Origin: Perognathus longimembris pacificus
Taxonomy: Eukaryota; Chordata; Mammalia; Rodentia; Heteromyidae
Assembly: GCF_023159225.1 (NCBI RefSeq)
Contig: NW_025957123.1
Coordinates: 1 to 64,000, forward strand
Length of the DNA stretch: 64,000 nt
Reading direction: 5' to 3'
A program made the translations under genes and the position numbers. This document shows, piece by piece, positions 1 through 21,600 of this stretch. The notes beneath the pieces were generated by a model, which worked only from the letters and a program-made list of their open reading frames with translations, searched no databases and was not told the DNA's origin. How positions within the stretch are numbered: position 1 is the stretch's first letter; each line of letters opens with the position of its first letter.

Positions 1-685
1 TTCCACAACTTCCTTCTTACTTGGTACCTTCCTTAGCTCCGGATTTTTGGTATATTACCTCTTATCTTTTTTTAATCTTTTTTTCATCATCATTGGGAAC
101 ACTGTGGCTACTTGCTACTACGATTCTGTTGTAGAGTATGCTGTTGCCATGTGGCAAAAAGGACATACTCATGTCTAATATGCTTTGGTCATTATGCACT
201 TCCTGTTTAATATTGGTAACCCAAGACGACCAGGATGAGGACAAATTGATCATCATTGTGCAACACATGCATGCATGTAGATGCCAGTTATATGAATAGT
301 GGAGCTGGAAGTAAACAAGGCTCCTTGAGGGGAATGGATAGAAATGGGAAAATGGCCAATTGTTCACCCATGTTTGCCTAAGTTTCATATATCGTTTGGA
401 ACACGTCTTGGTCAGTTTCAAATTGAAGCACATGTTTGTTTGTTGATCTCTTTCACTAAGGTAGGTGTGACTGGAGTAACTAGCTCATTTGTCGCCCCGG
501 GTAGTGAGACATTTCCATTTGAATATAACCCATTATTTATGCTATAGTTTAATTTGAACTAATGGTCAATTGGCAATGATGCTAACCTCTTAGATAAATG
601 CATGGAAATGCCTTGAGAAGTTTGGGTTTTTACAGCCCAAGTGGTAGTCTCAACATATTGATGTCTGAAAACATGAGATGAAGCG
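1..685. repeat. R block, partial copy R0 (left edge of window)
   Basis: This is the right-hand part of a repeat found again at 6,196-8,175, 11,296-13,305, 17,510-19,405 and 23,922-25,390. It starts in the tail of the polypyrimidine tract and runs through the landmarks 'aacactgtggctacttgc', 'ttgttgatctctttcactaa' and 'tgatgtctgaaaacatgag'. It is nearly identical to 12,621-13,305 and more diverged from the other copies. It lies directly downstream of the HSFY-like gene, which is read from the minus strand. No coding potential is evident. Confidence 0.85.
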
Positions 686-793
686 CATCCCACTGTTGAA
701 ATAAAGCAACATTTTAGTTTTATTTGCTATTGGCCTATAAGAAACAATACAGTTGAATGACCCTTCATTGCTTGAATAAAGCTGGGCAGAGTC

Positions 794-803
794 TTTATTT
801 ATT
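794..803 (-). promoter_or_regulatory. poly(A) signal of HSFY-like copy 1
   Basis: On the minus strand two overlapping AATAAA hexamers (AATAAATAAAG) lie about 20 nt beyond the stop codon at 825-823. If used, they would give a very short 3'UTR. The second gene copy keeps one of the two hexamers (13,413-13,418). Confidence 0.5.
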
Positions 804-822
804 ATAACAATACACATCGAAA

Positions 823-2730
823 TTAATTTTCCTCCCAACTCTGGCACTGGCTTGGGATATTACTCTCTTTCTGTTCCTTGTAAACTGGTGCTATTATATG
901 ATGATATTTTGAAAATGCTGTGGCAGATATTTCGCGTGTGGTGGCATTGGAGCACCGTTGATTGGATGCTGTCACTAGCATGCTTGAATGTGGCGATTCG
1001 TACGCCATAAAATAAGAATATCCAATTGGAATAGCTGAAGTTGGCATCATCTCTCTGAAATTTTCGTTTGATAATCGATCTGATTTTTCATATTGAGAAT
1101 TATAACTTTTATCAAAATTCACAAAGCAGTCATGTGCCTGGAGGTAGCTGTTGTTTGACAGCACATGAAGTGTGGTCAAATGACTAGACATGGCTCCCTG
1201 ATCCATAAACTTTTTGTGTGAATGTCTGACGGAAGAATCTCTGACAGGATTGTCATTTTTGAGTAAATGTGCTGCAGTTGCCAGCATGTGCGTGCCAGAT
1301 GGCTGGGGTCTATGAGACAGCAGTGAACTTCGTGATGTTGAAAGGATTCCTTCAGTACTAGTGTCAGAGACTAAATCTGTTTTGGGATTACTGGCATTAC
1401 CCTCATGTCCCAGGTGCAGTTGTTCATCCAGCTGCACAGGCAATGATTCACTTGTTACAGAAAACTTTTTAATCCTGACTTTTTGTCTTATTCTTGCTAA
1501 CAGTTCAGGACATCCTTGTTTGAAATTTGGATTCTGGTAGCACAGAAACTAAAACAGAAGGAGAAAGTTACTTGGAGACATTTGAAGCAGAGAGACTCAG
1601 AGCCAAACCTAGCCAAAGGAGATGAATTACCATTTACTCTCAATGGCAAAGGAGTCAATTGACGCATAAATACTTTAACTATATGCAGGGCTTAGTAGAA
1701 GAGAAACAGATAAATACAACAATGTTCTGAACCAATTGGATCTGCCACGTTGAACACAGAGAATATGTTATGTGGTTTTGTACACAGACCAAAGGTGTAA
1801 TTCTAATTGGCTAGCGATATTTCTGTAAATTCTAATGGTGAAGTCAAAATTTGTTCTTTACGAAGTGAACCTTTCTTTCCGTTACATTTTGTTTGCCCAG
1901 TCCTGGGCCTGGGACTCAGGGTCTAAGCACCGTCCCTGTCTTCTTCCCGCTCAAGGCTAGCACTCTGCCACCTGAGCCACAGCGACCCTTCTAGCCGTTT
2001 TCCACATATAGGTGGTGCTGGGAATTGAACTGAGAGCTTCTTGTATAGGAGGCAAGCACTCTTGCCATAGGCCATATTCCCAGCCCTTTCCGTTACATTT
2101 GAAAGTAATTTGAGCTTTGGTATTCCTCTACCTCACTGATAGAAGAAACAGGTGTACCAAGAGAGGTATGCATAGCTATGTAAGGGAAAAGAAAATTGAA
2201 ATTACCTTCCTTAAAGACGAGCCTTCCTCTTCCTCAGTCAAGAAGTCAAGCAGAGAAGCAGAACGATCAAATTGGTGATGAAGTTTACTGAACCCGTACA
2301 GATTCAGCTGTCGAATTACACTTTTCATGCTGTTCGTTTCAAATATCTTGAAAGGATATTTTCGTCCCAAAATTTCTTCTTTAAATACATCTTCATTAAT
2401 CACAACAGAAGATCCCTCCTCACCCCACCAAATTGACTTGAATTTGTCACTTTCTACTATTGTCCAAAGCTTTCTGGGAAAAGTCAGGGAAAGAAAATCA
2501 GGGTCTGGAACCGATTCCAAGTCACAATCCTGGGATGGTAGTCCTTGGACCCAAGATGGCTGACACAAAGCTTGAAAAGCCAATTCCTCAACCACAGACC
2601 TTAATGCCGCCTCCTCTACGAGTGAGGGTTCCCACCAGGAGGGTAGGTTGGAGGTCTCTGCACCTGTACAGCTCTGTTGGAACGTATTAGGCACATTTGA
2701 AAAATGTTCCTTCATGTCAGTTTCCTGCAT
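823..2730 (-). CDS. HSFY: HSFY-like heat shock transcription factor, intact two-exon gene (copy 1)
   Basis: This is an HSF-type DNA-binding protein, presumably nuclear and, by family, testis-associated. Exon 1 runs 2730-2206 (175 codons) and exon 2 runs 1548-823 (241 codons plus stop), giving 416 residues; human HSFY is about 400. The intron (2205-1549) is phase 0 with donor AAG|GTAATT and a pyrimidine-rich acceptor ending TTTTAG. The frame is open throughout. The HSF domain spans about residues 79-165, with FPRKLW at its start and the recognition-helix stretch RQLNLYGFSK at 140-149. Exon 2 opens with FLCYQNPNFKQGCPELL, which lines up with the segment after the domain in HSFY. The HLTTLHV segment near residue 298 matches the HSFY C-terminal region. 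I chose the ATG at 2730 (A at -3); the frame stays open a further 26 codons upstream, but without an ATG. No HR-A/B leucine-zipper trimerisation region is apparent, as usual for this subfamily. HSFX is the main alternative. The retained intron argues against a retrocopy. Confidence 0.88.
1890..2085 (-). mobile_element. ID-like tRNA-derived SINE in the HSFY intron
   Basis: The element is in the same orientation as the gene. A perfect 15-bp target-site duplication, CTTTCCGTTACATTT, flanks it at 1875-1889 and 2086-2100. The same insertion sits in the intron of copy 2 (14,511-14,706), so it predates the duplication. Confidence 0.93.
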
Positions 2731-3721
2731 GTTCAAGTCCTCCTCCCATCTGCAGAGTAGGGTACACTGCAGCTTAAGGAGTCCTAGAGGGTAGCTATGT
2801 CTGCTCAAGTAGGTCTAGCACACAGCTAGACCATAATGAGCATTCTGTGACATCACAAAAACGTCTTTGGTCTCCTACCATGTGCTAGGTAACCAGTCAG
2901 AAGCTTTCCTAGAAACTCTGATGCTAATCCTTTTATCCTAAATTGGAGACTGAATTTTCCTCTGTGGATAATGTGTGTACCTATGAGTCCAATAGAATCC
3001 TGCACATTGACATGGGAATCAATCAGCTGGTCAGACTCTGATACGCCTAAAAGTTATTTTTTGGCATTCACTGCCTCTTGCCTTTCTAGCTTAATGTCCA
3101 GAGCCGAGGGCTGCCTACTTGCACTTCCCAAATGTGATGGAAGTTGATGACAGATCTGTTATATTAACATGAGTCTTCCAACAATGAGCATGTTAGTCAG
3201 TGTTTCATAATGACAGGGACAATGTACAAGTCCTGTCTGAAAACATGATTATGAAAATGTTCCTGAAAATTCAGTTGCTGACATTATTAGGGTTGGCAAT
3301 TTTCACTGTATGGGATGATCTCACAGAAAGAGCTAAAGCTGGCACAAGGAATGCCTGTGACACTATATCTGCAGGAAGGGAAGCTACAGATAAAAGCACA
3401 ATACTTTGATGTTGTCATCTCACAAGTGGATGCGAGTATAAAATTGATAAAGTGTAGATATCCTACAATGCTGCAACTCATCTTCTGTGAAATTATCTGC
3501 CAGTTTTTTCTATTTCAATTAACTTAGAGAGGTGAAGAAATAAAATTGTTTCAGATGGAAACCTGTGAGATAATGTGCATGATTTCATTATCATTTCTCA
3601 TCTATTTACTAATGGACTCTTCAATACTGCATACAGAATAATGAGCCCCAAGCCTTGAGGTAAAAAGCAGTGCAAGTGAAAACATAGGGTCCTATTCCAG
3701 CTATAGCAACTGCAAGGCATT
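2731..3721 (-). promoter_or_regulatory. 5' flank of HSFY-like copy 1
   Basis: This single-copy-looking sequence lies upstream of the start codon and is repeated at 15,352-16,350. It contains a CRE-like octamer at 2848-2855 and the 119-bp segment 2871-2989 that reappears at 17,391-17,509. Around 3315-3527 a short plus-strand frame of 70 codons is open in both copies. The four residue changes between the copies, with no clear excess of silent changes, do not support a gene. No TATA box was recognised. Confidence 0.5.
2848..2855 (-). promoter_or_regulatory. CRE-like site upstream of HSFY copy 1
   Basis: The minus strand reads TGATGTCA, one mismatch from the palindromic CRE TGACGTCA, about 118 bp upstream of the chosen ATG. 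It is conserved in copy 2 at 15,476-15,483. CRE-like sites near the start are common in testis-expressed genes that respond to CREM. Its use here is inference. Confidence 0.3.
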
Positions 3722-3724
3722 CTT

Positions 3725-3775
<51 letters not shown>

Positions 3776-3973
3776 TTTTTTGCCAGTCCTGGGCCATGGA
3801 CTCAAGGCCTGAGCACTGTCCCTGGCTTCTTCCCGCTCAAGGCTAGCACTCTGCCACTTGAGCTACAGTGCCGCTTCTGGCTGTTTTCTGTATATGTGGT
3901 GCTGGGGAATCGAACCTAGGGCCTCGTGTATCCGAGGCAGGCACTCTTGCCACTAGGCTATATCCCCAGCCCC
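3722..3973 (-). mobile_element. ID-like SINE with expanded (TTTA)n tail
   Basis: This is an antisense SINE body (3,779-3,972) whose A-rich tail has become a long (TTTA)n microsatellite at 3,722-3,778. The approximate target duplications are 'caaggcattctt' and 'caagcgattctt'. The copy at 16,351 has a much shorter tetranucleotide run. Confidence 0.9.
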
Positions 3974-4437
3974 ACAAGCGATTCTTGGATATAATAAAAC
4001 TTAGGTTTCATTGTGATAGGTCCTGAGCACTGAAAATGACATATTATTACAATTCCACAGTTACAGCAGGCTGAGAAATAAGAACTGCTGTTGAAATGTA
4101 GAAGCTACTTGACAGCCATGAGTGAATGTGGGGGTGTTTAGTCTCCCAAGCTCTCGTGTACTGCGGAGAGTTGGGAAAAAACGCCCCTCCCTGATGAGCC
4201 AAGAAGAGGAAAAGAGGGCAGACAGACTCCTATCCCAGCCCCACTTTCCTCAGCGGACAAACAGACAGTCTGGGAACCAAGTCAATGCTAAGACTCATTT
4301 AATGGTAGAAAGAGCTGCACTTTTAAACGGGTGGGAGGGCGGCAGAAGGGGAGGAGTAGAATCGCCTATTAATGATACAAAGCACCTGGGGCGGGAGTGG
4401 CCCACAAGTAATGATTTGCAGGTCCTTTACCTAAAAG

Positions 4438-4811
4438 CTCACCTACACACAACCACAAACAAGCAGAAATACACACACATTCACACCCCTAGATCAACAA
4501 GTTCTCCCAAATCCACATGCATAGATAGTGGAACTATGACATCCCATTGAACAGAGGGAGACTTAGCCTCAGCAAGGATTTCTGACACCCTTTCCTGGAA
4601 CTCCTGGGGTCCAGTTGAGGAAAACTCACCTACACACAACCACAAACAAGCAGAAATACACACACATTCACTCCTCTAGTTCAAAAAGATCTCCCAAATC
4701 CAAAGCATAGACAGTTGAACTATGACATCCCATTGAACAGAGGGAGACTTAGCCTCAGCAAGGATTTCTGACACCCTTTCCTGGAACTCCTGGGGTCCAG
4801 TTGAGGAAAAC
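4438..4811. repeat. two direct repeats of 187 bp upstream of HSFY copy 1
   Basis: The units begin at 4438 and 4625 with 'ctcacctacacacaaccac' and share 'ggaactcctggggtccag' near their ends. They are about 95% alike. A minus-strand frame of 60 codons (4663-4481) spans the unit boundary and is preserved in the second amplicon copy, but I do not recognise it. The preceding 4,122-4,437 sequence carries GC-richer purine stretches and no identifiable gene. Confidence 0.8.
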
Positions 4812-4834
4812 TCCTCCTAAGGGTTTCCTCTGTT

Positions 4835-5196
4835 TGTTGGCCAGTCTTAAGCAATTTGTCATGAGATTCTCCTTCCCTGAATAGAAAACTCTTGGATTGT
4901 ATTGTTCCTCCAACTACTCCTGAGATAATGCTTTCACAATATTAGGCATTCTATTGTGAAGTCAAATGAATTTTGGGGAAGCCGATTAGAGTTTTATATT
5001 TGCTAATCTGATCCGGTGTTGTAGTGATATCCATGATATGAACAGAGTGGCAAATTTTTCTGAATTGTTCTTGCAATTATTAATTGATCTCTAAACCCAT
5101 ATACCCCTGACATCCCAAAAATAAAGCACATGCCTTCTTCTCAAAAAACCACGTCTCCCATATCCTTCCTTCGTTGCAGTTACCATTTGTCCCACA
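4835..5196 (+). mobile_element. class II ERV 5' LTR (betaretrovirus-like)
   Basis: The segment ends in CCCACA, two bases before a lysine-tRNA-type primer-binding site. An AATAAA lies at 5120-5125, about 70 bp before the LTR end, as expected for R/U5. The 5' edge is a guess: a TGTTGG at 4835 is the best TG start and would give 362 bp. This LTR is present only next to HSFY copy 1 and is absent at the corresponding point of copy 2. Confidence 0.65.
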
Positions 5197-5198
5197 TC

Positions 5199-5216
5199 TG
5201 TCCCCCAACGTGGGAC
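5199..5216 (+). other. ERV primer-binding site, lysine tRNA type
   Basis: TGTCCCCCAACGTGGGAC differs at a few positions from the lysine-tRNA complement typical of class II ERVs. It lies exactly 2 nt after the LTR end. Confidence 0.7.
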
Positions 5217-6195
5217 ATGGCATTTGATCCAAAGGAGATCCAGGAAACTACGTTGTGAACTCTCAAGGGGAACTAAGGGACATTTTTAATCACAAGAGAT
5301 AGCGAATCTGTGTAGCGAGCTCTCCAGAAGAACTGAAATCATTATGGGGATATGGGACAAGCTTAAGGTGCTTCTTTGTCTAATCTTATCCACCAGGTTC
5401 TGAAACGTAAATGGGCTATGATCTCGCATTCGGAAATACATGAGTGCATGCAGGAGGTAAGGGAGTATAATCTTTTATTCCCAGAGGAAACGATTTTAGA
5501 AGATTAGAGGAGGATTTTAGACTTAGAAGCCTGGAAGCGAGTAAAGAGTAATGCAGAAATGGCATATGGTGTGGTGACAATGTTCCAGCTCCATTGAGGT
5601 CTATTTGGGCCTTAATGCATGCAGCTCTCCATATGATTTCTCACAATGCTGTCATAACATCAGCTGCTGAACTAGTGGCTAATATGGGGAAAGCAAGGAA
5701 TACTTATAATCTTCAAGAGGTGGCAAAACCTCGAAGTGGACCACAGGTAACAGTTCAAACTATACCTGAGCAATCTCCTGTCAGATCTGTTACAAAAAAT
5801 TTAAACATTCTTCGGCGTCTGTATATGATCCTTCAGAGAATGACGCTAATTTAGGCAGTTCAGCAGCACAGTGGGAGGTCTACATAGGTTATTGAGTCCT
5901 GCAGGTCCCATCAGGAAGTAGAAAGTGACAAACAATAGATTTCCTCCTCAAGGTCACTTGACAATTCTTATTGTAATTCATATGATTCTGTTTCCCTCAC
6001 TTGTTTTCTTGCTGTTCCTGTCATTCAACCCTGTCCAATGGGAGGTGTAGCTCAGCCCCCTCATGATGTATATTGACCTCATTCACTTAAATTAGGGAAG
6101 TTGTAATACGGGGCTCACAGATGGCTCTGTTCCAGTGAAGTGAGTTTCCATATCATCTTTTCTTTACAACCACTCACTAGCAGGGGAGCTGCCGC
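5217..6195 (+). pseudogene. ERV leader and broken 5' gag
   Basis: This follows the primer-binding site in sense orientation. A gag-like start (ATGGGACAA at 5352) runs into a stop after four codons. Further on, an FPEE-type motif and a KRV segment in changing frames resemble betaretroviral matrix. The frame 5594-5854 is the longest surviving piece. The fragment ends without capsid or pol where the R block begins at about 6,196. It is non-functional. Confidence 0.55.
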
Positions 6196-8175
6196 ATCAC
6201 TTTGAGTTTTATTTCTTAGGTCCCTTACATTTAGTACTAACAGACAAATAGCCTCGCCATTCATCTAAATGACCATCTTTACCGACGTTGAGGCATCACA
6301 TAAAACTCATTTTCCTTAAGAGAGAATAGAAAATTCTTACTAGAGTCACGATATTTTAAGTTGGCTTTGGGAATTTATTCATCACCCCCAAGACTGAGAT
6401 GGGGACCCCCGTGACCCAGAGTCTTACAGAATCAACTTTTGCATAAGTCTGTTATAAAATCCTCTACTAGTTAGTGCTTTGTGTTTATGTACTGACTGAA
6501 ACAGGTCAGTGAGTGTTGGGTAGGTGATGTGGTGGCTTGGACACAAGTATACACCCTTAACTGGAAAAAGTTCAAGAGTTCATCCCTTCTTTTGGTCACT
6601 GGAGGGTTAGGTTTTGTCTCTGTGGGCACTGTCATTAAACTTGTCTCATGGTTTTGTTGTTTCTTACTGTCTATTTGGGGGCGGTAGATTTTCTCTAACT
6701 CTTTCCATTATCAAGCAAGTCTTCTGTGTTCCTTGAAGGCATTGCCAGTTGGTCTCAGCAGGGTGTCTTCTTGTGGATAGAAATATCCAGAGGGGAGGAT
6801 CACCATGAGATGTGTCAGGGCACAGTGTTCTTTCTGTCACTCTGGGAGTCAACTTGTCAATGCCTGTCTTGCATTCCATAGAAGATATTTTTGTGAATTA
6901 TTTAGAAATACACTTAGAAACCTAATGACCTGGTGCAGCTCAAAAATAATATTTTCTATAGTAGAAACTGAGTTTCATTTTTTCCTATTGGAAATGACAC
7001 TACAGCATTGTTTGTCAGATCAATTATAGTGAATATCTGATATCAGTGTACTAAGTAGTGTCCAAGTAGAAGCACAGCTTTATTAATTCCCTATGAATTT
7101 TTACGAATTTCCTTGCTTCCCTCCAGATATCCTTTCTTTTTCATCTGACCTGTCAATGCTTTCATATTGCCTTGCTTCTATCTCCAACCCAAGTCTCCCT
7201 TGCTCTCATCTTTCCTTCCTTTCTGCAATCATTCCTTCCTGCTACCTTTTCTTCCTTCCTTATCTCCCTTCATCTCTCTCCTTCCCCAGGCTTACCTTCA
7301 GATCCTCTTCCTCCATACTTCCTCCATTAACTCTGTCCCAGCCACTGTCCATAGAAACCACAATCCACCTCTCCCTGCCTCCTTCCCTGCCTACATTCCT
7401 TCCCTCATTGCTACCTTCCCTCCTGTCTTCCTTGGCTTCATCACCCCGCTCTTTTCTTTCTATCATTCCTCCTTCCCTCTTTTCTTACCTTCCATAACTT
7501 TCCTTCCTATTTTTACCTTACTTAGCTCTTGATTTACATTACTTTTATCTTTTTTTTCTCTCCATTTTTTCCTTCACCATTATGAACACTGTGGCAATTT
7601 ACTACTACTAATCTGTTGTGGAGCACTCTTTTCCCATGTCGCAAAAAGGACATACTCATGTCTAAGATATACTTTGGTCATTGTGCACATCCTGTTTTAT
7701 ATAGGTTACCCACCACAACCAGGATAAGGACAACTTGATCATCATTGTGCTAGACATGCATATGTGTAGAGGCCAGCTTTATGAACACTGGAGCTAGAAG
7801 TAACCAAGGTACCTAGAAGGGACAGGATAGAAATAGGGAAATTGCCAATCGTTCACCCATGACTTGCCTAAATTTCATATCCTTTGGAACACCTCAAGGT
7901 CACATTAAGATTGAAGCACATGTTTGTTTGTTGATCTCTTTCACTAAGGTACAAGTACTGGAGGAATTGGCTCATTTGTGGCCCCAGCTTGTGAGTCATT
8001 TCCATTTGAAAATAACCTATTATATGTGCATTAGACCTGTATTTCAACCAGCAGTCAATGGGCAATATTGCTAACCTCTTAGATAAATGGATGGAAATGC
8101 CTTGTGAAGATTGGGTTTTTACAGCCCAAGAGGTAGTCTCAACATATTGATGTCTGAAAATATGAGAAGAAGCCA
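6196..8175. repeat. R block copy R1 with polypyrimidine tract
   Basis: It starts at 'cactttgagttttattt', shares 'aatgaccatctttaccgac' and ends at 'tgtctgaaaatatgag'. A C/T-rich stretch at about 7,110-7,535 (ccttcc motifs) is followed by 'gaacactgtggc'. It pairs best with R3 (17,510-19,405), both being followed by the same antisense ERV fragment. The long open frames inside the pyrimidine tract are low-complexity artefacts. Confidence 0.85.
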
Positions 8176-9958
8176 TCCCCGGGACATTCCCATTTTATGT
8201 TTTGAAACCAAAAATTGTCGGAAGACCAAAAAACTCCTTTCTCCCCTTGTGTTTGTAGTTGCTGAGTCACCGACAAAAAATAAAGGAACCAGCATGAGCT
8301 GCCAGGATAGAGACAACACTAGCCGCCACTGCAGCCATGATTTTATTTCTCCATTAGTATCCTGATCTATCACTCCTGGAATAATACATAAGCCCATCAG
8401 TGCAGAGCAGCTGTAACCTAACAATTAGCCAACAGATTCCCTTGGAAGAGGGCCAAGAACTCCTGGATGGAGGGCCTGAAATCCCATTTCCGAAGTCAGT
8501 ACTGTGCAGGTAGAAGAACAGAGATCCAGCCCTGAACTTCCTCAGAGGAAGTTGCTCAGAGGAGACTTGAACCTGATTTTTGCTGCAGGTTGTTGGGGGA
8601 TAGGCTTGAGGTTGGGGGAAGGATGGAGCCGCCAGAAATTTTTTTTGTGGGGCCAGGTGCTGGCTCCTCTGCCAGTTTACTGAAATCTGGTGGCCACAGT
8701 CATTAAAAGTAGATCTGCAATTTGTAACACAATGCTTCCCGTTTTTAAAATAGGGACAAATTTCACTCATATTTCTCCTTTTCTGATTAGGTCAGTGAGC
8801 CATTAAGTGGTCCATTTGTCTTCAGGAAAAACAGATGCCGGGAATCCCAGCCGTACATAGATGTCCCCGTCGCCTTCTCCCCCATACAGTGCATGTGTAA
8901 GAACTCTGTCACAGTCAGCCCTTGGAGCCCTGCAGCGAGCGTGAGGCCCTGAACATAGGATGGCCCAATGTCTGCACAAAGTTGAATATAGTCATTTATT
9001 CCTCCTTTTTTCTTAGAAGGCCTGACGGCTGCTTGGCAATTTGGGCATAAAGTTTCAGTAGCCCAGGTTTCAAGAATGACTTCAGTGTGCTGGGAATATG
9101 GCCTATTGGCAAGTGTGCTTGCCTCATATACATGAAGCCCTGGGTTCTATTCTCCAGCACCACATATATAGAAAATGGCCAGAAGTGGCGCTGTGGCTCA
9201 AGTAGCAGAGTGCTAGCTTAGAGCAAAAAGAAGCCAGGGACAGTGCTCAGGCCCTAAGTTGAAGACCCAGGATTGGCCAATGAATAAATAAATAGATAAG
9301 AATGACTTGAGTAAACGGCACTGTAGGGCCATATTGAACACAAGCATTCTTTAGATCTCTTATTGGTTGAAATGGCAAAGCCTGATGAACCCTTTTGTTA
9401 TCTTCATCCTGCCTGTCAGGGAATAAATGAAAACCAGGAATGTCCTCCCTTCTTGAGCAGCCTGAGCCAAGGAAGTGTGCCACGCTTACGGCTAGGAGGG
9501 CCAGGAGCCTTTACCAGCACACGCTGAGACGGTACTAGCTGTGAGACTGTATCAGGCGGAGGTTGTGGTGGGAAAGGATCAAAGACCGCCAGGATTCTGG
9601 GCAGAGCCCACAAGTCTCTCCCTTTACAGGAGATTGCTGTTTTGGATGATATTGTGATTCCAAAATTTTCTCCACATGGGTCAATCTGTCTTTACTAGGC
9701 TCATTACATAATTTTTCCTCAGTGTCTGAGCCATCTTAGTCTTCCTTTTATCTAGCCCAGTGGGTTGAGATGTTTTTTAATTTTCTCAGCTCTTCCCATA
9801 CAGCTGCATAAGCTTGGGGGTTGGGTGATGCTCATCAAGTCCCTGTTCAGTTTCTCTGATCGACTGTTTGAACCTAATCCGTTCATATCTACAAGGGCAA
9901 TATTTGTAACGGATTCAGATTACGACCATAACCTACCTCATGCCACACTACTTCTTCT
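8176..9958 (-). pseudogene. class II ERV gag-pro fragment, copy 1
   Basis: Reading from high to low coordinate, the minus strand shows gag capsid N-terminal sequence (about 9,480-9,310, ending near a YGPTVPFTQV motif), interrupted by a SINE. Then come capsid C-terminal sequence (9,085-8,800, with YIRLCADRGP-like residues in the second copy), a nucleocapsid zinc-knuckle remnant with CPYFKNGKHCVTNC near 8,755, and a dUTPase-like region to about 8,180. Frames are broken repeatedly. 9,480-9,958 is gag-like sequence upstream of capsid with no clean frame. The whole fragment is duplicated at 19,406-21,240 with roughly 8-10% differences. Confidence 0.7.
9087..9297 (+). mobile_element. ID-like SINE inside ERV capsid remnant
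   Basis: This is a sense SINE with recognisable A and B boxes and a tail of 'aataaataaatag'. Its target duplications are AAGAATGACTTCAGT (9072-9086) and AAGAATGACTTGAGT (9298-9312). The same insertion is at 20,311-20,524. Confidence 0.93.
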
Positions 9959-10330
9959 TTTGTTCTCGTTTATTTTATTTTTTCCTTTATTGTCAGAGTG
10001 ATGAACCGAAGGTTTAGAGGTTCATAAGTGAGTCAGTAAGTATATATCTCGTTCATCATTTTCCTCCTCCAACACACCCCCTTCCAAATCCTTTGTTTCT
10101 TTCCCCCTGAGAAATTGTAGAATTGGTTTACACAAATGTTTGTGTAAATTTTGCTTTTGGAGGCATTTGTACTTTTAACCTTTTTCCCTTGATTTCTGCA
10201 TAACCTGTCCCTTTACTAGTGTTTATACAAGAATCAAATTATTTACTCTTTTCTTTCACTAATTTGTGGGGCAACTGTATATACAAGTTTGTCTGACCAA
10301 GATGAATTTAGCCAAGCTAATATTTATTGA
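9959..10330 (-). mobile_element. old L1 3'UTR fragment, antisense
   Basis: It aligns with the antisense L1 3' ends at 22,460 and 27,945: 'tttattgtcagagtgatg', a pyrimidine-rich stretch and 'ggtttacacaaatg'. It is clearly more diverged than those. It is duplicated at 21,241-21,600. Confidence 0.6.
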
Positions 10331-11295
10331 ATGGTTCCAGTAATATAATGAATTATGTACTTCCCAACCACAACACTGCAAGGGGATCACCAGTACCCAA
10401 GGTGTGTACAATTATGTTTGGAGACTGTGTAAACGAATCAAGGAACCCTTCCCTTGAGATTTCCTTTTTCATTTTAGCTCAATATTTTTCAACCATGAAC
10501 TATCTATTATGATCTCTAAATTGTTTTCCTAAAATCAACATCTTTTCCCACTGCACATATAGGTCCCCTTGTAAAGGAAGGAGAGATTCAGGACTCCTCT
10601 GTACCTAGGGATGATTTTAAGTATGGTGTCTTCATAGCTCTCAAGTGGTTGTTGAGAAAGAAATTTTTAGGAGCCCAAACTAAATGTCTACAACAGAACA
10701 CAGTCATCTCCTTTGAAGTATCCATTTAGTAGTGCTTTCATTCCAACCTCATTGGATCAAACAAAACCAGTGCCTAGTCATACTGTTACTTATATTTTAC
10801 TTTGCAATACTCAAGATGGAGTGAACGAGAGGGTTATTATTTCATCCCCATCAAACCAGTTCACTATAGGAAAAATTAACACCAGAAATCATAATGGAGT
10901 TTTCCTTTAGACAGAAAAGAGGAGATACAGCTTCTCCCCCCATTTGTACATGTCAACCACATATGGTTCCATCCTTGATAATGGACTCTAAGAGTATCAC
11001 TGGCTGCAATTGTACTATTGCAAAATGACGCAAATGGGGAGGGCTGGAGGGAAAAGCAGAGGACATGAAATGTGTCACAGTTGGCATTTCCTTATCCCAA
11101 CATTGGTGTAAACGCTATTGGGTGTCCATTACCCACCATACAAGACAAAGAAATAGAGTTCCATGTAAATTTTAATTGATGTGCCTGTCTTGTGGTTCCC
11201 TGCACTGGTCGAGAATATTTTACACACCACTATTGGAAGAAAAAATATGTGACTTTTTTGTAACTTGGTGCACATTGAATTTTACAATATATAAA
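10331..11295. other. unassigned sequence, duplicated at 21,601 onward
   Basis: This stretch is about 90% alike to 21,601-22,459 plus 23,798-23,921. Plus-strand frames at 10,327-10,512 and 10,713-10,910 are short and are not preserved as the same frames in the other copy. The context between ERV and R sequence suggests more ERV remnant, but I found no diagnostic motif. Confidence 0.4.
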
Positions 11296-13305
11296 CTCAC
11301 TTTGTGTTGTATTTCTTCTGTCCCTGACTTTTAGTAGTCACAGACATATTTCCTAGCGTTTCATGTAAATGACCAACTTTACCGACCTTGAGATATTCCA
11401 TATAAATCATTTCCCTTAGAAGAGGAGAGAAAAATCTTACTAGAGTCACTTTATTTTAGGCTGGCTTTGGGAATTTAGGGAACTCCCTCCAAGACTGTGA
11501 TGGGGACCCCGTGACCCAGAGATTTCCCAGCGTCAACTTTTGCATAAGTCTTTTGACAAATCCTCTAGTGGTGTTTTGTTTGTGTTTCATGCACTGACCT
11601 AAAATGGTCAGTGAGTGCTGGGTTGGTGACATGGTGACTTGGACACAAGTTTACACCCCTGCTTGAGAAAAGAGGCAAGATGTCATCCCTTCTTTTGGGA
11701 CCTCGTGGGTCAGGTTTTGTCTCGGTAGGCATTCTGTCATTACACTTGTCTCTTGGTTTTGTTGTTTCCTACTGTCTATTTCAGGGACTTAGATTGTCTC
11801 TAACTCTTCCTAATATCAACAGGTCATCTGTGTTCCTTGAAGGCACTGCCAGATGGCCTCATCAGGGTGTCATCTGGAGCATAGAGATATCCAGAGTGGA
11901 ACATCCTTAGGAGATGATACAGGGCACAGTGTTCTTTCTGTCACTCTGGCAGTCAACTTGTCAATGCCAGTCTTGCATTCCGTAGAAGAATATTGTTGAG
12001 CCTTACTTAGAAATTCGCTTAGAAATCTCATGACCCTGTGCAGCGGATGAATAACATTTTCTATAGTACAAACTGAGTTTCATTTTTACCTATTTGAACT
12101 GACACTACAGATTTTTATGTCAAGCAAACGATACTGAATATTTGATATCAATGTACTAAGTAGTGTCCAAGTAAAAACACAGCTTTATAAATATGAAATG
12201 TATTTTTATGATTTTCCTTGCTTCCCATGAAGTATCAATTCCTTTTCATCTTCCCTCTCACTGCTTTCATGGTTCCTTACTCCTATGTCCCACCCAGTCT
12301 CCCTTGTTCTCATCCTTCCTTCCTTTCTGCTTTCATTCCTTCCTGATTTCTTTTCTTCCCTCCTTATCTCTGTTTGTCACTCTCTCCTTCCCCAGGATTC
12401 CTTTTGGATCCTTCTTTCTCCATACTTCCACCTATAACTCCATCCCTCACACTGTTGATACAAACCACAATCCATCTGTCCCTGCCTCCCTGCCTGCCTG
12501 CATTCCTTCCCTCCTTTCTACCTTCTCTCCTGTCTTCTTTCCTGAATTCTTGTCTTCCTGTGCTTCATCACTCCATCCCTTTTCTTTATATCATTCATTG
12601 CTTCCCTCTCCTTTCTCTAGTTCCACAACTTTCCTTCTTACTTGGTACCTTCCATAGCTCCGGGTTTTTGGTATATTACCTCTTATCTTTTTTTAATCAT
12701 TTTTCATCATCATTGGGAACACTGTGGCTACTTGCTACTACGATTCTGTTGTAGAGTATGCTGTTGCCATGTGGCAAAAAGGACATACTCATGTCTAATA
12801 TGCTTTGGTCATTATGCACTTCCTGTTTAATATTGGTAACCCAAGACGACCAGGATGAGGACAAATTGATCATCATTGTGCAACACACGCATGCATGTAG
12901 ATGCAAGTTATATGAATAGTGGAGTTGGAAGTAAACAAGGCTCCTTGAGGGGAATGGATAGAAATGGGAAAATGGCCAATTGTTCACCCATGTTTGCCTA
13001 AGTTTCATATATCATTTGGAACACATCTTGGCCAGTTTCAAATTGAAGCACATGTTTGTTTGTTGATCTCTTTCATTAAGGTTGGTGTGACTGGAGTAAC
13101 TAACTCATTTGTCGCCCCGGGTAGTGAGTCATTTCCATTTGAATATAACCCATTATTTATGCTATAGTTTAATTTGAACTAATGGTCAATTGGCAATGAT
13201 GCTAACCTCTTAGATAAATGCATGGAAATGCCTTGAGAAGTTTGGGTTTTTACAGCCCAAGTGGTAGTCTCAACATATTGATGTCTGAAAACATGAGATG
13301 AAGCA
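11296..13305. repeat. R block copy R2
   Basis: This is a full R block: 'cactttgtgttgtattt' at the start, 'aatgaccaactttaccgacc' at 11,367, a polypyrimidine tract at about 12,230-12,650, and 'tgtctgaaaacatgagatgaagc' at the end. It lies just downstream of the HSFY pseudogene (minus strand). From 12,621 on it is near-identical to the window start. Its left part pairs with R4 at about 90%. Confidence 0.85.
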
Positions 13306-13412
13306 CATCCACTGTTGAAATAAAGCAACATTTTAGTTTTATTTGCTATTGGCCTATAAGAAACAATACAGTTGAATGACCCTTCATAGTTTAAATAAAG
13401 CTGGGCAGAGGC

Positions 13413-13418
13413 TTTATT
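13413..13418 (-). promoter_or_regulatory. poly(A) signal of HSFY-like copy 2
   Basis: A single minus-strand AATAAA about 25 nt after the stop position corresponds to one of the two overlapping hexamers of copy 1. Confidence 0.4.
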
Positions 13419-13441
13419 CATTATAACAATACACATCGAAA

Positions 13442-15351
13442 TTAATTTTCCTCCCAACTCTGGCACTGGCTTGGGATATTACTCTCTTTCTGTTCCTTGT
13501 AAATTGGTGCTATTAAATGATGATATTCTGAAAATGCTGCGGCAGATATTTCGCGTGTGGTGGCATTGGAGCACAGTTGACTGGATGCTGTCACTAGCAT
13601 GCTTGAATGTGGCGATACGTAGGCAATAAAATCAGAATATCCAAGTGGAATAGCTGAAGTTGGCATCATCTCTCTGAAATTATCGTTTGATAATCGATGT
13701 GATTTTTGATATTGAGAATTATAACTTTTATCAAAATTCACAAAGCAGTCATGTGCCTGGAGGGAGCTGTTGTTTGACAGCACATGAAGTGTGGTCAAAT
13801 GACTAGACTTGGCTCCCTGATCCATAATCTTTTTGTGTGAATGTCTGACGGAAGAATCTCTGACAGGATTGTCATTTTTTGAGTAAATGTGCTGCAGTTG
13901 CCAGCATGTGCGTGCCAGATGGCTGGGGTCTATGAGACAGCAGTGAACTTCGTGATGTTGAAAGGATTCCTTCAGTACTAGTGTCAGAGACTAAATCTGT
14001 TTTGGGATTACTGGCATTACCCTCATGTCCCAGGTGCAGTTGTTCATCCAGCTGCACAGGCAATGATTCACTTGTTACAGAAAACTTTTTAATCCTGACT
14101 TTTCGTCTTATTCTTGCTAACAGTTAAGGACATCCTTGTTTGAAATTTGGATTCTGGTAGCACAGAAACTAAAACAAAAGGAGAAAGTTACTTGGAGACA
14201 TTTGAAGCAGAGAGACTCAGAGCCAAACCTAGCCAAAGGAGATGAATTACCATTTACTCTCAATGGCAAAGGAGTCAATTGACGCATAAATACTTTAACT
14301 ATATGCAGGGCTTAGTAGAAGAGAAACAGATAAATACAACAATGTTCTGAACCAATTGGATCTGCCACGTTGAACACAGAGAATCTGTTATGTGGTTTTG
14401 TATACAGTCCAAAGGTGTAATTCTAATTGGCTAGCGATATTTCTGTAAATTCTAATGGTGAAGTCAAAATTTGTCCTTTACGAAGTGAACCTTTCTTTCC
14501 GTTTCATTTTGTTTGGCCAGTCCTGGGCCTGGGACTCAGGGTCTAAGCATCGTCCCTGTCTTCTTCCCGCTCAAGGCTAGCACTCTGCCACCTGAGCCAC
14601 AGCGACCCTTCTAGCCGTTTTCCACATATAGGTGGTGCTGGGGAATTGAACTGAGAGCTTCTTGTATAGGAGGCAAGCACTCTTGCCATAGGCCATATTC
14701 CCAGCCCTTTCCGTTACATTTGAAAGTAATTTGAGCTTTGGTATTTCTCTAGTTCACTGATAGAAGAAACAGGTGTACCAAGAGAGGTATGCATAGCTAT
14801 GTAAGGGAAAAGAAAATTGAAATTACCTTCCTTAAAGACGAGCCTTCCTCTTCCTCAGTCAAGAAGTCAAGCAGAGAAGCAGAACGATCAAATTGGTGAT
14901 GAAGTTTACTGAACCCGTACAGATTCAGCTGTCGAATTACACTTTTCATGCTGTTCGTTTCAAATATCTTGAAAGGATATTTCCGTCCCAAAATTTCTTC
15001 TTTAAATACATCTTCATTAATGACAACAGAAGTTCCCTCCTCACCCCACCAAATTGACTTGAATTTGTCACTTTCTACTATTGTCCAAAGCTTTCTGGGA
15101 AAAGTCAGGGAAAGAAAATCAGGGTCTGGAACCGATTCCAAGTCACAATCCTGGGATGGTAGTCCTTGGACCCAAGATGCCTGACACAAAGCTTGAAAAG
15201 CCAATTCCTCAACCACAGACCTTAATGCCGCCTCCTCTGCGAGTGAGGGTTCCCACTAGGAGGGTAGGTTAGAGGTCTCTGCACCTGTACAGCTCTGTTG
15301 GAACGTATTAGGCACATTTGAAAAATGTTCCTTCATGTCAGTTTCCTGCAT
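13442..15351 (-). pseudogene. HSFY: HSFY-like heat shock transcription factor, disrupted copy 2
   Basis: This is the paralogue of 823-2730 with the same two-exon layout: exon 1 15351-14827, intron 14826-14169, exon 2 14168-13442. Splice sites are kept. Two lesions break it. Codon 32 is TAG (15258-15256), where copy 1 has TGG. The T run at 13875-13880 has six bases instead of five, a +1 frameshift at about codon 272 that stops within a few codons. The DNA-binding domain itself (FPRKLW to RQLNLYGFSK) stays readable, but only a non-ATG restart downstream of the stop could express it. Nucleotide differences from copy 1 are few, so decay is recent. Confidence 0.88.
14511..14706 (-). mobile_element. 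ID-like SINE in the intron of HSFY copy 2
   Basis: Orthologous to the SINE at 1,890-2,085. The left target duplication has drifted (CTTTCCGTTTCATTT at 14,495-14,509), while the right one remains CTTTCCGTTACATTT. Confidence 0.93.
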
Positions 15352-16350
15352 GTTCAAGTCCTCATCCCATCTGCAGAGTAGGGTACACTTAAGGGTACAG
15401 CTTAAGGAGTCCTAGAGGGTAGCTATGTCTGCTCAAGTAGGTCTAGCACACAGCTAGACCATAATGAGCATTCTGTGACATCACAAAAACGTCTTTGGTC
15501 TCCTACCATGTGCTAGGTAACCAGTCAGAAGCTTTCCTAGAAACTCTGATGCTAATCCTTTTATCCTAAATTGGAGACTGAATTTTCCTCTGTGGATAAT
15601 GTGTGTACCTATGAGTCCAATAGAATCCTGCACATTGACATGGGAATCAATCAGCTGGTCAGACTCTGCTATGCCTAAAAGTTATTTTTTGGCATTCACT
15701 GCCTCTTGCCTTTCTAGCTTAATGTCCAGAGGCGAGGGCTGCCTACTTGCACTTCCCAAATGTGATGGAAGTTGATGACAGATCTGTTATATTAACATGA
15801 GTCTTCCAACAATGAGCATGTTAGTCAGTGTTTCATAATGACAGGGACAATGTACCAGTCCTGTCTGAAAACATGATTATGAAAATATTCCTGAAAATTC
15901 AGTTGCTGACATTATTAGGGTTGGCAATTTTCACTGTATGGGATGATCTCACAGAAAGAGCTAAAACTGGCACAAGGAATTCCTGTGACACTATATCTGC
16001 AGGAAGGGAAGCTACAGATAAAAGCACAATACTTTGATGTTGTCATCTCACAAGTGGATGCGAGTATAAAATGGATAAACTGTAGATATCCTACAATGCT
16101 GCAACTCATCTTCTGTGAAATTATCTGCCATTTTTTTCTATTTCAATTAACTTAGAGAAGTGAAGAAATAAAATTGTTTCAGATGGAAACCTGTGAGATA
16201 ATGTGCATGATTTCATTTTCATTTCTCATCTATTTACTAATGGACTCTTCAATACTGCATACAGAATAATGAGCCCCAAGCCTTGAGGTAAAAAGCAGTG
16301 CAAGTGTAAACATAGGGTCCTATTCCAGCCATAGCAACTGCAAGCCATTC
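15352..16350 (-). promoter_or_regulatory. 5' flank of HSFY-like copy 2
   Basis: Paralogous to 2,731-3,721. The CRE-like TGATGTCA is kept at 15,476-15,483. A short insertion near 15,390 ('aagggtacagctt') duplicates neighbouring bases relative to copy 1. Segment 15,507-15,625 is the likely template of 17,391-17,509. Confidence 0.5.
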
Positions 16351-16569
16351 TTTTATTTATTTATTTATTTATTTTTTGCCAGTCCTGGGCCTTGGACTCA
16401 AGGCCTGAGCACTGTCCCTGGCTTCTTCCCGCTCAAGGCTAGCACTCTGCCACTTGAGCTACAGTGCCGCTTCTGGCTGTTTTCTGTATATGTGGTGCTG
16501 GGGAATCGAACCTAGGGCCTCCTGTATCCGAGGCCGGCTGTCTTGCCACTAGGCTATATCCCCAGCCCC
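16351..16569 (-). mobile_element. ID-like SINE with short (TTTA)n tail
   Basis: Paralogue of the SINE at 3,722-3,973. The tetranucleotide tail is only about 22 bp here, against about 57 bp in copy 1. Confidence 0.9.
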
Positions 16570-17034
16570 ACAAGCGTTTCTTGGATATAATAAAACCTAG
16601 GTTTCATTGTGATAGGTCCTGAGCAGTGAAAATGACATATTATTACAATCCCACAGTTACAGCAGGCTGAGAAATAAGAACTGCTGTTGAAATGTAGAAG
16701 CTACTTGACCGCCATGAGTGAATGTGGGGGTGTTTAGTCTCCCAAGCTCTCGTGTACTGCGGAGATTTGGGAAAAAATGCCCCTCCCTGATGAGCCAAGA
16801 AGAGGAAAAGAGGGCAGACAGACTTCTATCCCAGCCCCACTTTCCTCAGAGGACAAACAGACAGTCTGGGAACCAAGTCAATGCTAAGACTCATTTAATG
16901 GTAGAAAGAGCTGCACTTTTAAACGGGTGGGAGGGTGGCGGAAGGGGAGGAGTAGAATCGCCTATTAATGATACAAAGCACCTGGGGCGGGAGTGCCCCA
17001 CAAGTAATGATTTGCAGGTCCTTTACCTAAAAGC

Positions 17035-17390
17035 TCACCTACACACAACCACAAACACAGAAATACACAGACATTCACACCCCTAGATCAACAAGATCTC
17101 CCAAATCCACATGCATAGATAGTGGAACTATGACATCCCATTGAACAGAGGGAGACTTAGCCTCAGCAAGGATTTCTGACACCCTTTCCTGGAACTCCTG
17201 GGGTCCAGTTGAGGAAAACTCACCTACACACAACCACAAACAAGCAGAAATACACACACATTCACTCCGCTAGTTCAACAAGATCTCCCAAATCCAAAAG
17301 CATAGACAGTGGAACTATGACATCCCATTGAACAGAGGGAGACTTAGCCTCAGCAAGGATTTCTGACACCCTTTTCTGGAACTCCTGGGG
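17035..17390. repeat. 187-bp direct repeats upstream of HSFY copy 2, truncated
   Basis: Two units start at 17,035 and about 17,219. The second is cut off at 'actcctgggg' (17,390), where the sequence switches to a different part of the HSFY flank. The preceding 16,570-17,034 sequence matches 3,974-4,437. Confidence 0.8.
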
Positions 17391-17509
17391 TCTCCTACCA
17401 TGTGCTAGGTAACCAGTCAGAAGCTTTCTTAGAAACTCTGATGCTAATCCTTTTATCCTAAATTGGAGACTGAATTTTCCTCTGTGGATAATGTGTGTAC
17501 CTATGAGTC
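17391..17509 (+). repeat. 119-bp templated segment at the rearrangement junction
   Basis: This is a near-identical third copy (one visible mismatch, c to t) of 15,507-15,625 and 2,871-2,989, in direct orientation. It is joined on the left to the truncated 187-bp repeat and on the right to the R block. Short shared bases (ggtc; ct) sit at the joins. Confidence 0.85.
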
Positions 17510-19405
17510 TTTACCGACCTTGAGATATCACATATAACTCATTTTCCTTCAATGAGAAAAGAAAATTCTTATTAGAGTTACTTTATTTTAGTATGGCTTT
17601 GGGAATTTATCGAACACCCCCAAGACGGCGATGGGGATCCTGTGACCCATAGTCTTCCAGAGTCAACTTTTGCATAAGTCCTTTCTAAAATCCTCTAGTA
17701 GTTAGTGCTTTGTGTTTCATGTCCTGACTGAAACAGGTCAGTGTGTGTTGGGTAGGTGATGTGGTGACTTGGACACAAGTATGCACCCCTAACTGAAAAA
17801 CGTGCAAGAGTTCATCCCTCCTTTTGGTTGCATGTGGGTCAGGTTTTGTCTCTGTGGACATTCTGTCATTAAACTTCTCTCGTGGTTTTGTTGTTTCTTA
17901 CTGTCTATTTGGGGGCTGTAGATTTTCTCTAACTCTTTCCAATATCAAGCAAGTCTTCTGTGTTCCTTGAAGGCACTGCCAGTTGGTCTCAGTAGGGTGT
18001 CATCTGGAGGATAGAAATATCCAGAGGGGAGGATCCCCTTGAGATGTTTCAGGGTACAGTGATCATTCTGTCACTCTGAGGGTCAACTTGTCAATGCCTG
18101 TCTTGCATTCCGTAGAAGATACTTTGTCAATTACTTAGAAATTGACTTAAAATCTTATGACCTGGTGCAGTGGATGAATAATATTTTCTATAGTACAAAC
18201 TGAGTTTCATTTTTTTCCCTATTTGAAATGACACTACAGCATTGTTTGTCAGATCAATGATATTGAATATCTGATATCAGTGTACTAATTAGTGTCCAAA
18301 TAGAAGCACATTTTTATAAATGTACTATGTATTTTTATGAATTTCCTTGCTTCCCACCAATATCCTCTCTTTTTCATCTGACCTCTCAATGCTTTCATAT
18401 ATCCTTACTTCTACCTCCAACGTAGGCTCCCTTGCTCTCATCTTTCCTTCCTTTCTGCTATCATTCCATCCTGCTACCTTTTCTTCCTTCCTTATCTCCC
18501 TTCATCACTCTCCTTCTGCAGGATTACGTTCAAATCCTCTTCCTCCATATTTCCACCATTAACTCGGAATCACCCACTGTCGATACAAACCACAATCCAT
18601 TTCTCCCTGTCTCCTTACCTGTCTGCATACCTTCCCTCCTTGTACCTTCCCTACTGTTTTCCTTGGCTTCATCACCCCGTCCCTTTTTTGTATATCATTC
18701 ATTCCTTGCCTCTCTTTCTTACTTTCCATAACTTTCCTTCTTATTTTTACCTTACTTACGTCTTGATTTATGGTACTTTACCTTTTATCTTATTTTTATC
18801 CTTTTTTTTCTCATCATAATGAACACTGTGGCTACTTGCTACTACTATTCTGTTGTGTGACACGCTTTTGCCATTTGGCAAAATGGACATACTTATGTCT
18901 AAGATATATTTTGTTCATTTTGCACTTCCTGATTAAAATAGGTTACCCACCACAACCAGGATGAGGACAACTTGATCACCATTATGGTAGACATGCATGT
19001 GTGTAGAGGCCAGCTATATGAAGCTAGAAGTAACTAAGGAACCTAGAAGGGAATGGATAGAAATAGGAAAATTGCCAATCGTTCACCCCATTTCTTGCCA
19101 AAGTTTCATATCGTTTGGAATACTCCAAGGGCACTTTGAGATTTAAGCACGTTTGTATTTTGATCTCTTTTATTAGGTACCAGTACTGGAGGAATTGGCT
19201 CATTTGTTGCCCCAGCTAATGTGTCATTTGCATTTGAATATAACCTATTATATATTCCATAGACCTATAATTCAACCAGCGGTCAATGGGCAATGTTGCT
19301 AACCACTTAGATAAATGGATGGAAATGACATGAGAAGATTGGGTTTTTACAGCCCAAGAGGTAGTCTCTACATATTGATGTCTGGAAATATGACAAGAAG
19401 ACATT
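17510..19405. repeat. R block copy R3, left-truncated
   Basis: It begins abruptly at 'tttaccgacc', inside the R block, and continues colinear with R1. The polypyrimidine tract is at about 18,350-18,750. It ends at 'tgtctggaaatatgac'. The open frames in the tract are compositional. Confidence 0.85.
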
Positions 19406-20310
19406 CCCGGGCCTTTCCCATTTTATGATTTGAACCCAAAAAATGTCAGAAGACCAAAAACTACTTTCTCCCCTAGAGTTTGTGTTAGCTGAGGCACCGA
19501 CAAAAATTAAAGGAACCAGAGTGAGCTGCCGGGATAGAGATAAAACTAGCAGGCACTGCAGCCGTGATTTTTATTTCTCCATTAGAATCCTGATCTATCA
19601 CTCCTGGAAGAATACGTATGCCCCTCAGTGCAGAGCTGCTGCGACCATACAATAAGCCAACCGATTCCCTTGGAAGGGGGCTAAGAACTCACGTAGGAAG
19701 GGCCTGAAATCCCATTTCTGAAGTCAGTGCTGTGCAGGTAAAGGAACCGAGATCCAGTCCTGCAATTCCTATTGTTGCTCAGAGGAGACTTGAAACTGAT
19801 TGTTGCTGCAGGTGGTTTGGGGATAGGCTTGAGTTCAGGGGAAGCAAGGAACCGCCCCAAATTTTTTCTGTGGGGTGAGGAGATGGCTCCTCTGCCAGTT
19901 TATTGAAATCTGGCGACCAGAGTCATTCAAAGTAGCTCAGCAATTTGTAACACAATGCTTCCCATTTTTACAACAGGGACAAATTTCAGTAATAGCTCTC
20001 CTTTTCTGATTAGGTCAGTGAGCCATTAAGTCGTCCATTTGTCTGCAGGACAAACAGATGCTGGGAATCCCAGCAGTACATAGATGTCCCTGTCGCCTTC
20101 TCCCCATACAGGACTCTGTGACCGAACTCTGTCACAGTCTGCCCTTGGAGCATTGCAGCCAGCGTGAGGCCCTGCACAAGGGATGGCCCCCTGTCTGCAC
20201 AAAGCCGAATATAGTCATTTATTCCTCCTTTTTTCTTAGAAGGCCTGATAGCTGCTTGGTAATTTGGGCATAAAGTTTTAGTAGCCAAGGTTTCAAGAAT
20301 GACTTGAGTA

Positions 20311-20524
20311 TGCCGGGAATATGGCCTAGTGGCAAGAGTGCTTGGCTCATATATATGAAGCCCTGGGTTCTATACCACAGCACCACATATATAGAAAATG
20401 GCCAGAAGTGGCGCTGTGGCTCAAGTAGCAGAGTGCTAGCCTAGAGCAAAAAGAAGCCAGGGACAGTGCTCAGGCCCTGAGTTGAAGACCCAGGATTGGC
20501 CAATGAATAAATAAATAAATAAAT
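20311..20524 (+). mobile_element. ID-like SINE inside ERV fragment, copy 2
   Basis: Paralogue of the SINE at 9,087-9,297, with the same flanking AAGAATGACTTGAGT-type duplication. Its (AAAT)n tail is slightly longer. Confidence 0.93.
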
Positions 20525-20580
20525 AAGAATAACTTGAGTGAACGTCACTGTAGGGCCATATTGAACACGAGAATACTTTA

Positions 20581-20715
20581 GATCTCTTATTTGTTTAAAT
20601 GTCAAAGCCTGATGAACACTTTTGTTACCTTCATCCTCCCATTTGATCTCTTGTTTAGATCTCTTATTTGTTTAAATGTCAAAGCCTGATGAACTCTTTT
20701 GTTACCTTCATCCTG
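20581..20715. repeat. 77-bp tandem duplication private to ERV copy 2
   Basis: 'gatctcttatttgtttaaat' starts at both 20,581 and 20,658, and the following 55 bp are repeated with one or two changes. The other copy (about 9,354 onward) has a single unit. Confidence 0.85.
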
Positions 20716-21240
20716 CCTATCAGGGAATAAAGGAAAACCAGAAATGTCCTCCCTTCTTGAGCCTGAGTCAAGGAAATGTGCCACGCTTACGGGTAGGGGG
20801 ACCAGGCACCTTTAACAGCACAGGCTGAGATGGTAGTAGCTGTGAGACCCTATCAGGCATAAGTTGGGGTGGGAAAGCATCAAAGTCCGCCAGGATTCTG
20901 GGCAGGGCCCACAATTCTCTACCTTTACAGGAGTTTACTGATTTGGATGATGTTGTGAAAATAGGGCTATAATTGATACCAAAATTTTCTCCACATGGGT
21001 CAATCTGCCTTTAGTAGGTTCATTACATAACTTTTCCTCAGTGTCTCAGCCATCTGAGTCTTCCTTAATATCTATCCCAATGGGTTGAGATCTTTTTTAA
21101 TTTTCTCAACGCTTCCCAAACAGCTGCAAAAGCTTGTGGGTTGGGTGATGCTGATCAAGTCCCTGTACAGTTTCTCTGTTCGACTGAATCTAATCCGGTC
21201 AAAGCATTAATTCTAACGGAGTCAGATTAGGACCATAACC

Positions 21241-21600
21241 TACTTCAAGCCAAACTACTTCCTCTTTTTTGTTCATTTTATTTTTTCCTTTATTGTCAGA
21301 GTTATGTACCGAAGGATTAGAAGTTCATATGGAAGTCAGTAATATATTTCTAGTTCATCATGTTACCTCCTCCGTCACCCCCCACTTCCAACTCCCTTGT
21401 CTCGTGCCCCATATAAGTTGTAGTATTGGTTTACACAAATGTTTTTGTAAATTTTGCTTTTGCAGATATTTGCATTTTTATGCATTGGCCCATGATTTTA
21501 GCATAAACTGTCTCTTTACTAGTATTTATACAGGAATCAAATTATTGACTTTTTTCTTCCACTAGTTTGTGGGGCAACTGTGTATACAATCTTGTCTGAC
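21241..21600 (-). mobile_element. old L1 3'UTR fragment, copy 2
   Basis: Paralogue of 9,959-10,330, retaining the 'ttattgtcagagttatg' and 'ggtttacacaaatg' landmarks. Confidence 0.55.

Follow-up and report, generated by a model that had tools for sequence, protein, structure and literature searches.

HSFY is Y-linked in most mammals and belongs to the few ancestral mammalian Y genes that have been amplified repeatedly, for reasons that, to our knowledge, are not known. T2T Y chromosomes carry 40 HSFY genes in cattle and 26 in sheep (PMC11436988), the cattle gene has two exons and is testis-specific (PMC3049798), and the pig has about 50 + 50 copies (PMC4460688). Mouse HSFY is present in spermatocytes and spermatids and disruption of its expression is associated with infertility, with knowledge of its role described as scarce (PMC12366260). 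Rodent HSFY has been described as autosomal (PMC4446799), the mouse has at least one retroposed copy (PMC4460688), and testis expression is reported for the rodent gene of the mouse Hsfy2 type (PMC4446799, PMC4460688). Among the open-licence papers listed for HSFY, we found no report of an HSFY array in a rodent. The array described here, from the Pacific pocket mouse, is an ampliconic HSFY, with near-identical tandem copies of which a part are intact, and as a notably divergent paralog it would be new in a rodent.

The window, by which we mean the whole 64,000-nucleotide stretch of Perognathus longimembris pacificus DNA that was analysed, is the start of a 73.8 kb scaffold (C1195), and the gene lies on its minus strand at positions 823-2730. 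Coding exon 1 (2206-2730, minus strand) supplies codons 1-175, with the N-terminal part and most of an HSF DNA-binding domain, and coding exon 2 (823-1548, minus strand) supplies 241 codons and the stop, with the end of the binding domain (to residue 198) and the HSFY C-terminal part. They are separated by a phase-0 intron of 657 nt (1549-2205, minus strand) with GT and AG ends (GTAATT...TTTTAG). As the sequence-only reading of this DNA had proposed, joining 2730-2206 to 1548-823 at these canonical sites gives a single frame, open in both exons, of 416 codons plus stop, encoding a 416-aa protein. The complete DNA-binding domain that it had also claimed is recovered by the Pfam HSF_DNA-bind profile (PF00447): exon 1 alone (residues 84-155 of the protein) matches positions 1-69 of 100 with 64.3 bits, and the joined protein positions 1-100 of 100 with 80.8 bits. 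Since only the joined protein fills the profile, the intron splits the binding domain and the predicted splice completes it. The exon 1 part is matched by 18 sequences, including solved structures of HSF1, HSF2, HSF4 and HSF5; NCBIfam, tRNA and Rfam scans returned no matches. The splice junction is retained in all 92 copies of the gene examined in this genome (GT and AG, with introns of 655-661 nt), and an intron occupies the equivalent place in a relative on scaffold C865. Such conservation of the two-exon frame and its splice across copies is far beyond chance and confirms that the gene is real.

Within the intron, at positions 1880-2087, is an element that we take to be a SINE; it recurs elsewhere in the window at 82-84 % identity, and an intron length that includes it is found in 92/92 copies, live and dead alike. 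Overlapping AATAAA poly(A) signals are situated just 3′ of the stop (794-803, minus strand), and about 120 nt 5′ of the ATG is the sequence TGATGTCA (2848-2855, minus strand), which we take to be CRE-like. The latter is present in 79/79 copies with enough upstream sequence, and AATAAA occurs within 80 nt past the stop in 74 of the 75 copies for which the stop context was found, although both are only hints of function because near-identical copies share nearly everything.

The family to which the gene belongs was examined with a tree of 48 proteins, namely the window protein and 47 of the retrieved records, with mouse absent. The window protein falls within HSFY, as had been proposed, in a clade of geomyoid rodents (100/100); it is grouped weakly with Dipodomys (94/58) on a long end branch (0.79), and the muroid rodent HSFYs form a separate clade. 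Behind the binding domain, alignments of about 200 residues show 36-39 % identity to four geomyoid HSFYs whose C-terminal part is complete, in keeping with the HSFY-type C-terminal part recognized in the sequence-only reading, and identity to five non-muroid HSFYs is 25-35 %; the resemblance is weak at distance, Arvicanthis reaching 19 %, a value that two HSFX proteins equal or exceed (19-21 %). The tree, the domain and the exon structure identify the gene as HSFY. HSFX, which the earlier reading had named as an option, has the HSF DNA-binding domain too, and an IWW motif in that domain is found in 7/9 HSFX records checked, but the motif is non-discriminating since it is also found in 83/120 HSFY-search hits. 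HSFX proteins occupy a clade of their own (100/100), and the two compared are only 40-46 % identical to the window protein in the binding domain as well as diverging behind it, so that an HSFX origin is ruled out by the tree; a retrogene is ruled out by the intron, retained in 92/92 copies. An HSFX-type gene or a processed pseudogene therefore has a negligible probability. We note that one guinea pig predicted protein (P0105, 682 aa) carries the HSF domain together with two other Pfam domains and is possibly a fused gene model.

The gene is part of a direct tandem repeat in which positions 1-3750 recur at 12621-16377 with 97.7 % identity, with weaker similarity extending to about 25.4 kb. Unit A corresponds to 1-12620, the window and the scaffold both beginning inside the unit, and unit B to 12621-25391, with the end of the amplicon near 25.4 kb; the two are 97.5-97.7 % identical over the gene part and about 87-90 % over the remaining aligned part. 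The HSFY copy in unit B (13442-15351, minus strand) is broken: a G-to-A change at 15257 makes codon 32 a stop, and exon 2 carries one inserted base near 13880. The description of the first copy as an intact, intron-bearing gene in a rodent tandem amplicon is well founded, its frame of 416 codons being open and the repeat evident, but it is not a lone survivor, as is clear from the genome-wide search.

The assembly that was searched has 6,180 scaffolds and 2,211,921,483 bases. The published Pacific pocket mouse assembly, from a wild-born male, has 6,180 scaffolds and 2,212,099,196 bases, of which about 290 Mb are unanchored and about 20 Mb of these Y-related; the RNA used for its annotation is given as fibroblasts, liver, muscle and heart plus kidney and spleen of two Chaetodipus species, with no testis named in the available text (PMC9348616). 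Searching with exon 1 gave at least 150 scored matches (291 candidates) on 67 scaffolds, and by hand tally, all counts being lower bounds, 135/150 have no stop, 127/150 are full length (residues 1-175) and 121 are both; together with the many intact copies this rules out the window copy as the sole intact survivor. None of these 150 matches, and none of 103 matches to a second HSFY query, is on scaffolds C1-C28, which, given their multi-megabase coordinates, presumably correspond to the 28 chromosome-length scaffolds in the published assembly. A search with non-coding intron DNA found at least 40 scored copies (196 candidates), and by hand comparison with the exon-1 list 30 of 40 have a full-length open exon 1, the other ten comprising four with stops, three that are partial and three absent from that list. 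On C915 and C986, among others, the units follow one another at intervals of about 12,578 bases. Single scaffolds such as C915 and C3923 contain several of them, C3923, at 1.64 Mb, being the largest carrier among scaffolds whose length was seen. C3923 also contains the gene in both orientations and, at 82-98 kb, a unit spacing of about 7.48 kb (~7,480 bases) instead of 12.58 kb. Judged by these sequence matches, the genome of the Pacific pocket mouse contains well over a hundred members of the family. The array is seemingly unannotated, since no protein near-identical to its copies is among the database matches listed.

The 92 copies examined are 80 from the upper exon-1 ranking, 10 lower-ranked ones (every fourth of the next 40) and the two in the window; another 28 matches, most of them partial or located at the end of a scaffold, lie outside this sample. 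Intact genes account for 59/92 (56/82 for the upper ranking and window, 3/10 for the lower-ranked copies) and represent 42 different coding sequences, which encode 38 different proteins. For the family as a whole this intact fraction is too high, because 82/92 copies come from the upper part of the exon-1 protein-score ranking, where a well-conserved exon 1 is favoured, and the low-ranking partial matches are left out. Breaks are scattered over several parts of the copy tree, in which the window copy is among the longer tips (0.01). In ten nearly identical copies (L009-L013 and L015-L019), two of which lie on duplicate scaffolds, the frame ends at a common stop, codon 203, situated five residues past the binding domain; these copies would encode 202 residues with the complete binding domain only. 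Four copies have a stop at codon 413.

A conserved HSFY is located on scaffold C865, in two copies (26500-28650 and 109550-111700; L099 and L100) that are 99.9 % identical and separated by about 83 kb. In both copies, splicing at the gene's own sites yields an intact frame of 400 aa. The database contains a 253-aa model from this animal (P0015) whose residues 1-246 are matched by C865 at 98-99 % and which ends early inside exon 2. We had considered C865 as a decayed ancestor, as the genome search reported two stops in its exon-2 stretch, and rejected this on account of the intact spliced frames. The array consensus and C865 share only 48 % identity; the two group together weakly (63/75), with a stem branch of 0.84 for the array versus 0.31 for C865. 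With the C865 gene intact and the stem of the array this long, the reading as a divergent paralog beside a conserved HSFY is supported. With C865 as an internal reference, it becomes possible to test directly whether selection acts on dosage, the binding domain or the C-terminal part.

Comparison of the array consensus with C865 gives an overall dN/dS of 0.7, with 0.20 over the 115 codons of the binding domain, 0.87 for the C-terminal part and 1.4 for the N-terminal part. We conclude that purifying selection has acted on the binding domain since the array and C865 separated, whereas the C-terminal part diverged fast, with no purifying selection seen against C865. The intact array copies have a similar pattern, with pN/pS of 0.20 for the binding domain and 1.40 for the part that follows it, and in those of standard length 6/115 residues vary in the binding domain versus 54/218 in the C-terminal part; within the array the synonymous to non-synonymous contrast between these two parts is not significant (Fisher p 0.24), and the main sample was picked by exon-1 protein score. 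The segment NSMKSVIRQLNLYGFSKL, which we call the recognition helix by analogy with HSF1/2, is invariant in 59/59 intact copies. In the ten lower-ranked copies the variant ratio is near-neutral (0.96, exon-1 part of the binding domain), and substitutions number 7.3 per kb in exon 2 versus 8.6 per kb in the intron. It is plausible that selection still acts across the array.

The closest relatives of the array are the geomyoid HSFYs of Dipodomys merriami, Thomomys bottae and C865 (at least five Dipodomys and at least two Thomomys HSFY-like records are among the matches listed), with which it shares a full binding domain and a length of about 400 aa, although some listed models are shorter; it differs from them in its much greater numbers and in the divergence from C865 and long stem described above. 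The gene is multi-copy with intact and broken copies as in cattle and sheep, with tandem arrays as in cattle (PMC11436988), and has two exons as in cattle (PMC3049798; the comparison covers the number of exons), but it is from a rodent and has at least 150 scored exon-1 matches. Because the copies cluster with geomyoid HSFYs, we take the amplification to be independent of that in cattle and sheep; with more copies than the T2T counts for either species, on unanchored scaffolds, it would constitute an independent replicate of HSFY amplification. The pig family likewise has many copies, an intronic SINE, and live and dead classes (PMC4460688), whereas in the pocket mouse the SINE-length intron is found in live and dead copies and some dead classes are instead marked by shared stops (codons 203 and 413). 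Mouse Hsfy2, autosomal and retroposed, is also a rodent HSFY, but the pocket mouse copies keep the intron and are massively amplified, and the muroid clade is separate, mouse itself being absent from the tree.

The reading that we favour, with a probability of about two in three, is that of a working-looking, divergent HSFY paralog whose tandem amplification in the lineage of the Pacific pocket mouse has produced well over a hundred copies. Testis expression of the array is likely by comparison with HSFY elsewhere, and the copies would be transcribed in male germ cells; the fertility role put forward in the sequence-only reading is a candidate one. The proteins may bind heat-shock-element-like DNA via the conserved winged helix, and transcription would be adjusted by dosage, a germ-cell factor being supplied at high gene dosage; lineage-specific activity could evolve in the fast-changing C-terminal part, and unequal exchange together with gene conversion may preserve some copies as others decay. 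The most likely function is that of a germ-cell transcription factor at high dosage, its binding domain being retained while its C-terminal part is able to change. A substantial possibility, though one we do not favour, is that the amplification was mostly neutral and satellite-like, that few copies (or only the HSFY on C865) work and that the open frames are young and undecayed. The C-terminal pN/pS of 1.4 in intact copies, the substitution densities of exon 2 and intron, the scattered breaks, the near-neutral lower-ranked copies and the full-length genes on C865 are all consistent with such a history, as is the pig, in which one HSFY form is largely dead and one partly live (PMC4460688), but it accommodates poorly the binding-domain dN/dS of 0.20 against C865, the invariant NSMKSVIRQLNLYGFSKL and the 59/92 intact copies. 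There is also duplication in the assembly: C3648 and C3649 are of equal length and identical over the compared stretch, matches occur at the same coordinates on C139 and C3861 and on C5338 and C3823, and some scaffolds, and so some copies, are assembly duplicates. That the copy number is mainly such an artefact, with duplicated haplotigs of few loci, is nevertheless very improbable, since 66/82 gene sequences are distinct and multiple units are present in single scaffolds (C915 and C3923). An extension of the favoured reading, which we consider distinctly speculative and improbable as a whole, is a rodent Y array of two protein classes, full-length and 202-residue binding-domain-only, the short class serving as a dosage-dependent decoy that competes with HSFs for their binding sites in spermatids in an X-Y transmission conflict. 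The codon-203 stop is in the last exon, so its mRNA should escape nonsense-mediated decay, and if true this would be a rodent Y array larger than the published cattle, sheep and pig HSFY counts.

The amplified paralog that we favour may reside on an unanchored, male-specific Y, and Y-linkage is likely, in that scaffolds of a male assembly outside C1-C28 fit a Y location, which is no proof. That the array is instead in unanchored autosomal or X heterochromatin, as a non-Y HSFY family, is rather unlikely but has points in its favour: rodent HSFY is stated to be autosomal (PMC4446799), merely about 20 Mb of the roughly 290 Mb of unanchored sequence is assigned to the Y (PMC9348616), and genome searches with ZFX/ZFY, SRY and RBMY markers placed no Y gene on any of the 67 HSFY scaffolds. 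Set against these are the 0/150 exon-1 and 0/103 second-query matches on C1-C28, and the Y-linkage and amplification of HSFY in cattle, sheep and pig (PMC3049798, PMC4460688, PMC11436988).

The marker searches gave several further matches. C28 has ZFX-like, SOX3-like and RBMX-like matches and is probably the X. The RBMY search matched C1, C13 and C28 only. Among unanchored scaffolds the SRY-box search exceeded 30 % identity only on C623, which is outside the 67 HSFY scaffolds and has an SRY-like HMG box in two overlapping frames (26611-26843). C634 (334 kb) contains three ZFX/ZFY activation-domain fragments near 32, 122 and 166 kb, two with a stop, and is a possible Y scaffold; a second ZFX-like copy is at 51.4 Mb on C28. 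We considered that C634 might share Y DNA with the window and rejected this, as all that an 8-kb piece has in common with the window is short sequences occurring there repeatedly, that is, interspersed repeats. Elsewhere in the window, an element of about 2 kb, pyrimidine-rich by eye, occurs twice per unit (6197-8178, 11297-13310, 17509-19404 and 23923-25392) with about 80-90 % identity, and contains ORFs at 12175 and 24798 that matched no Pfam family. LINE-1-like remnants are seen at 50612-51076, with a weak RVT_1 match below the cut-off, and at 23076-23633, by eye only and with no Pfam match. A further interspersed element is present at 22475-22819, 27960-28301 and 53032-53371; the ZFY-like scaffold C634 contains it too, with an identity of about 80-85 %.
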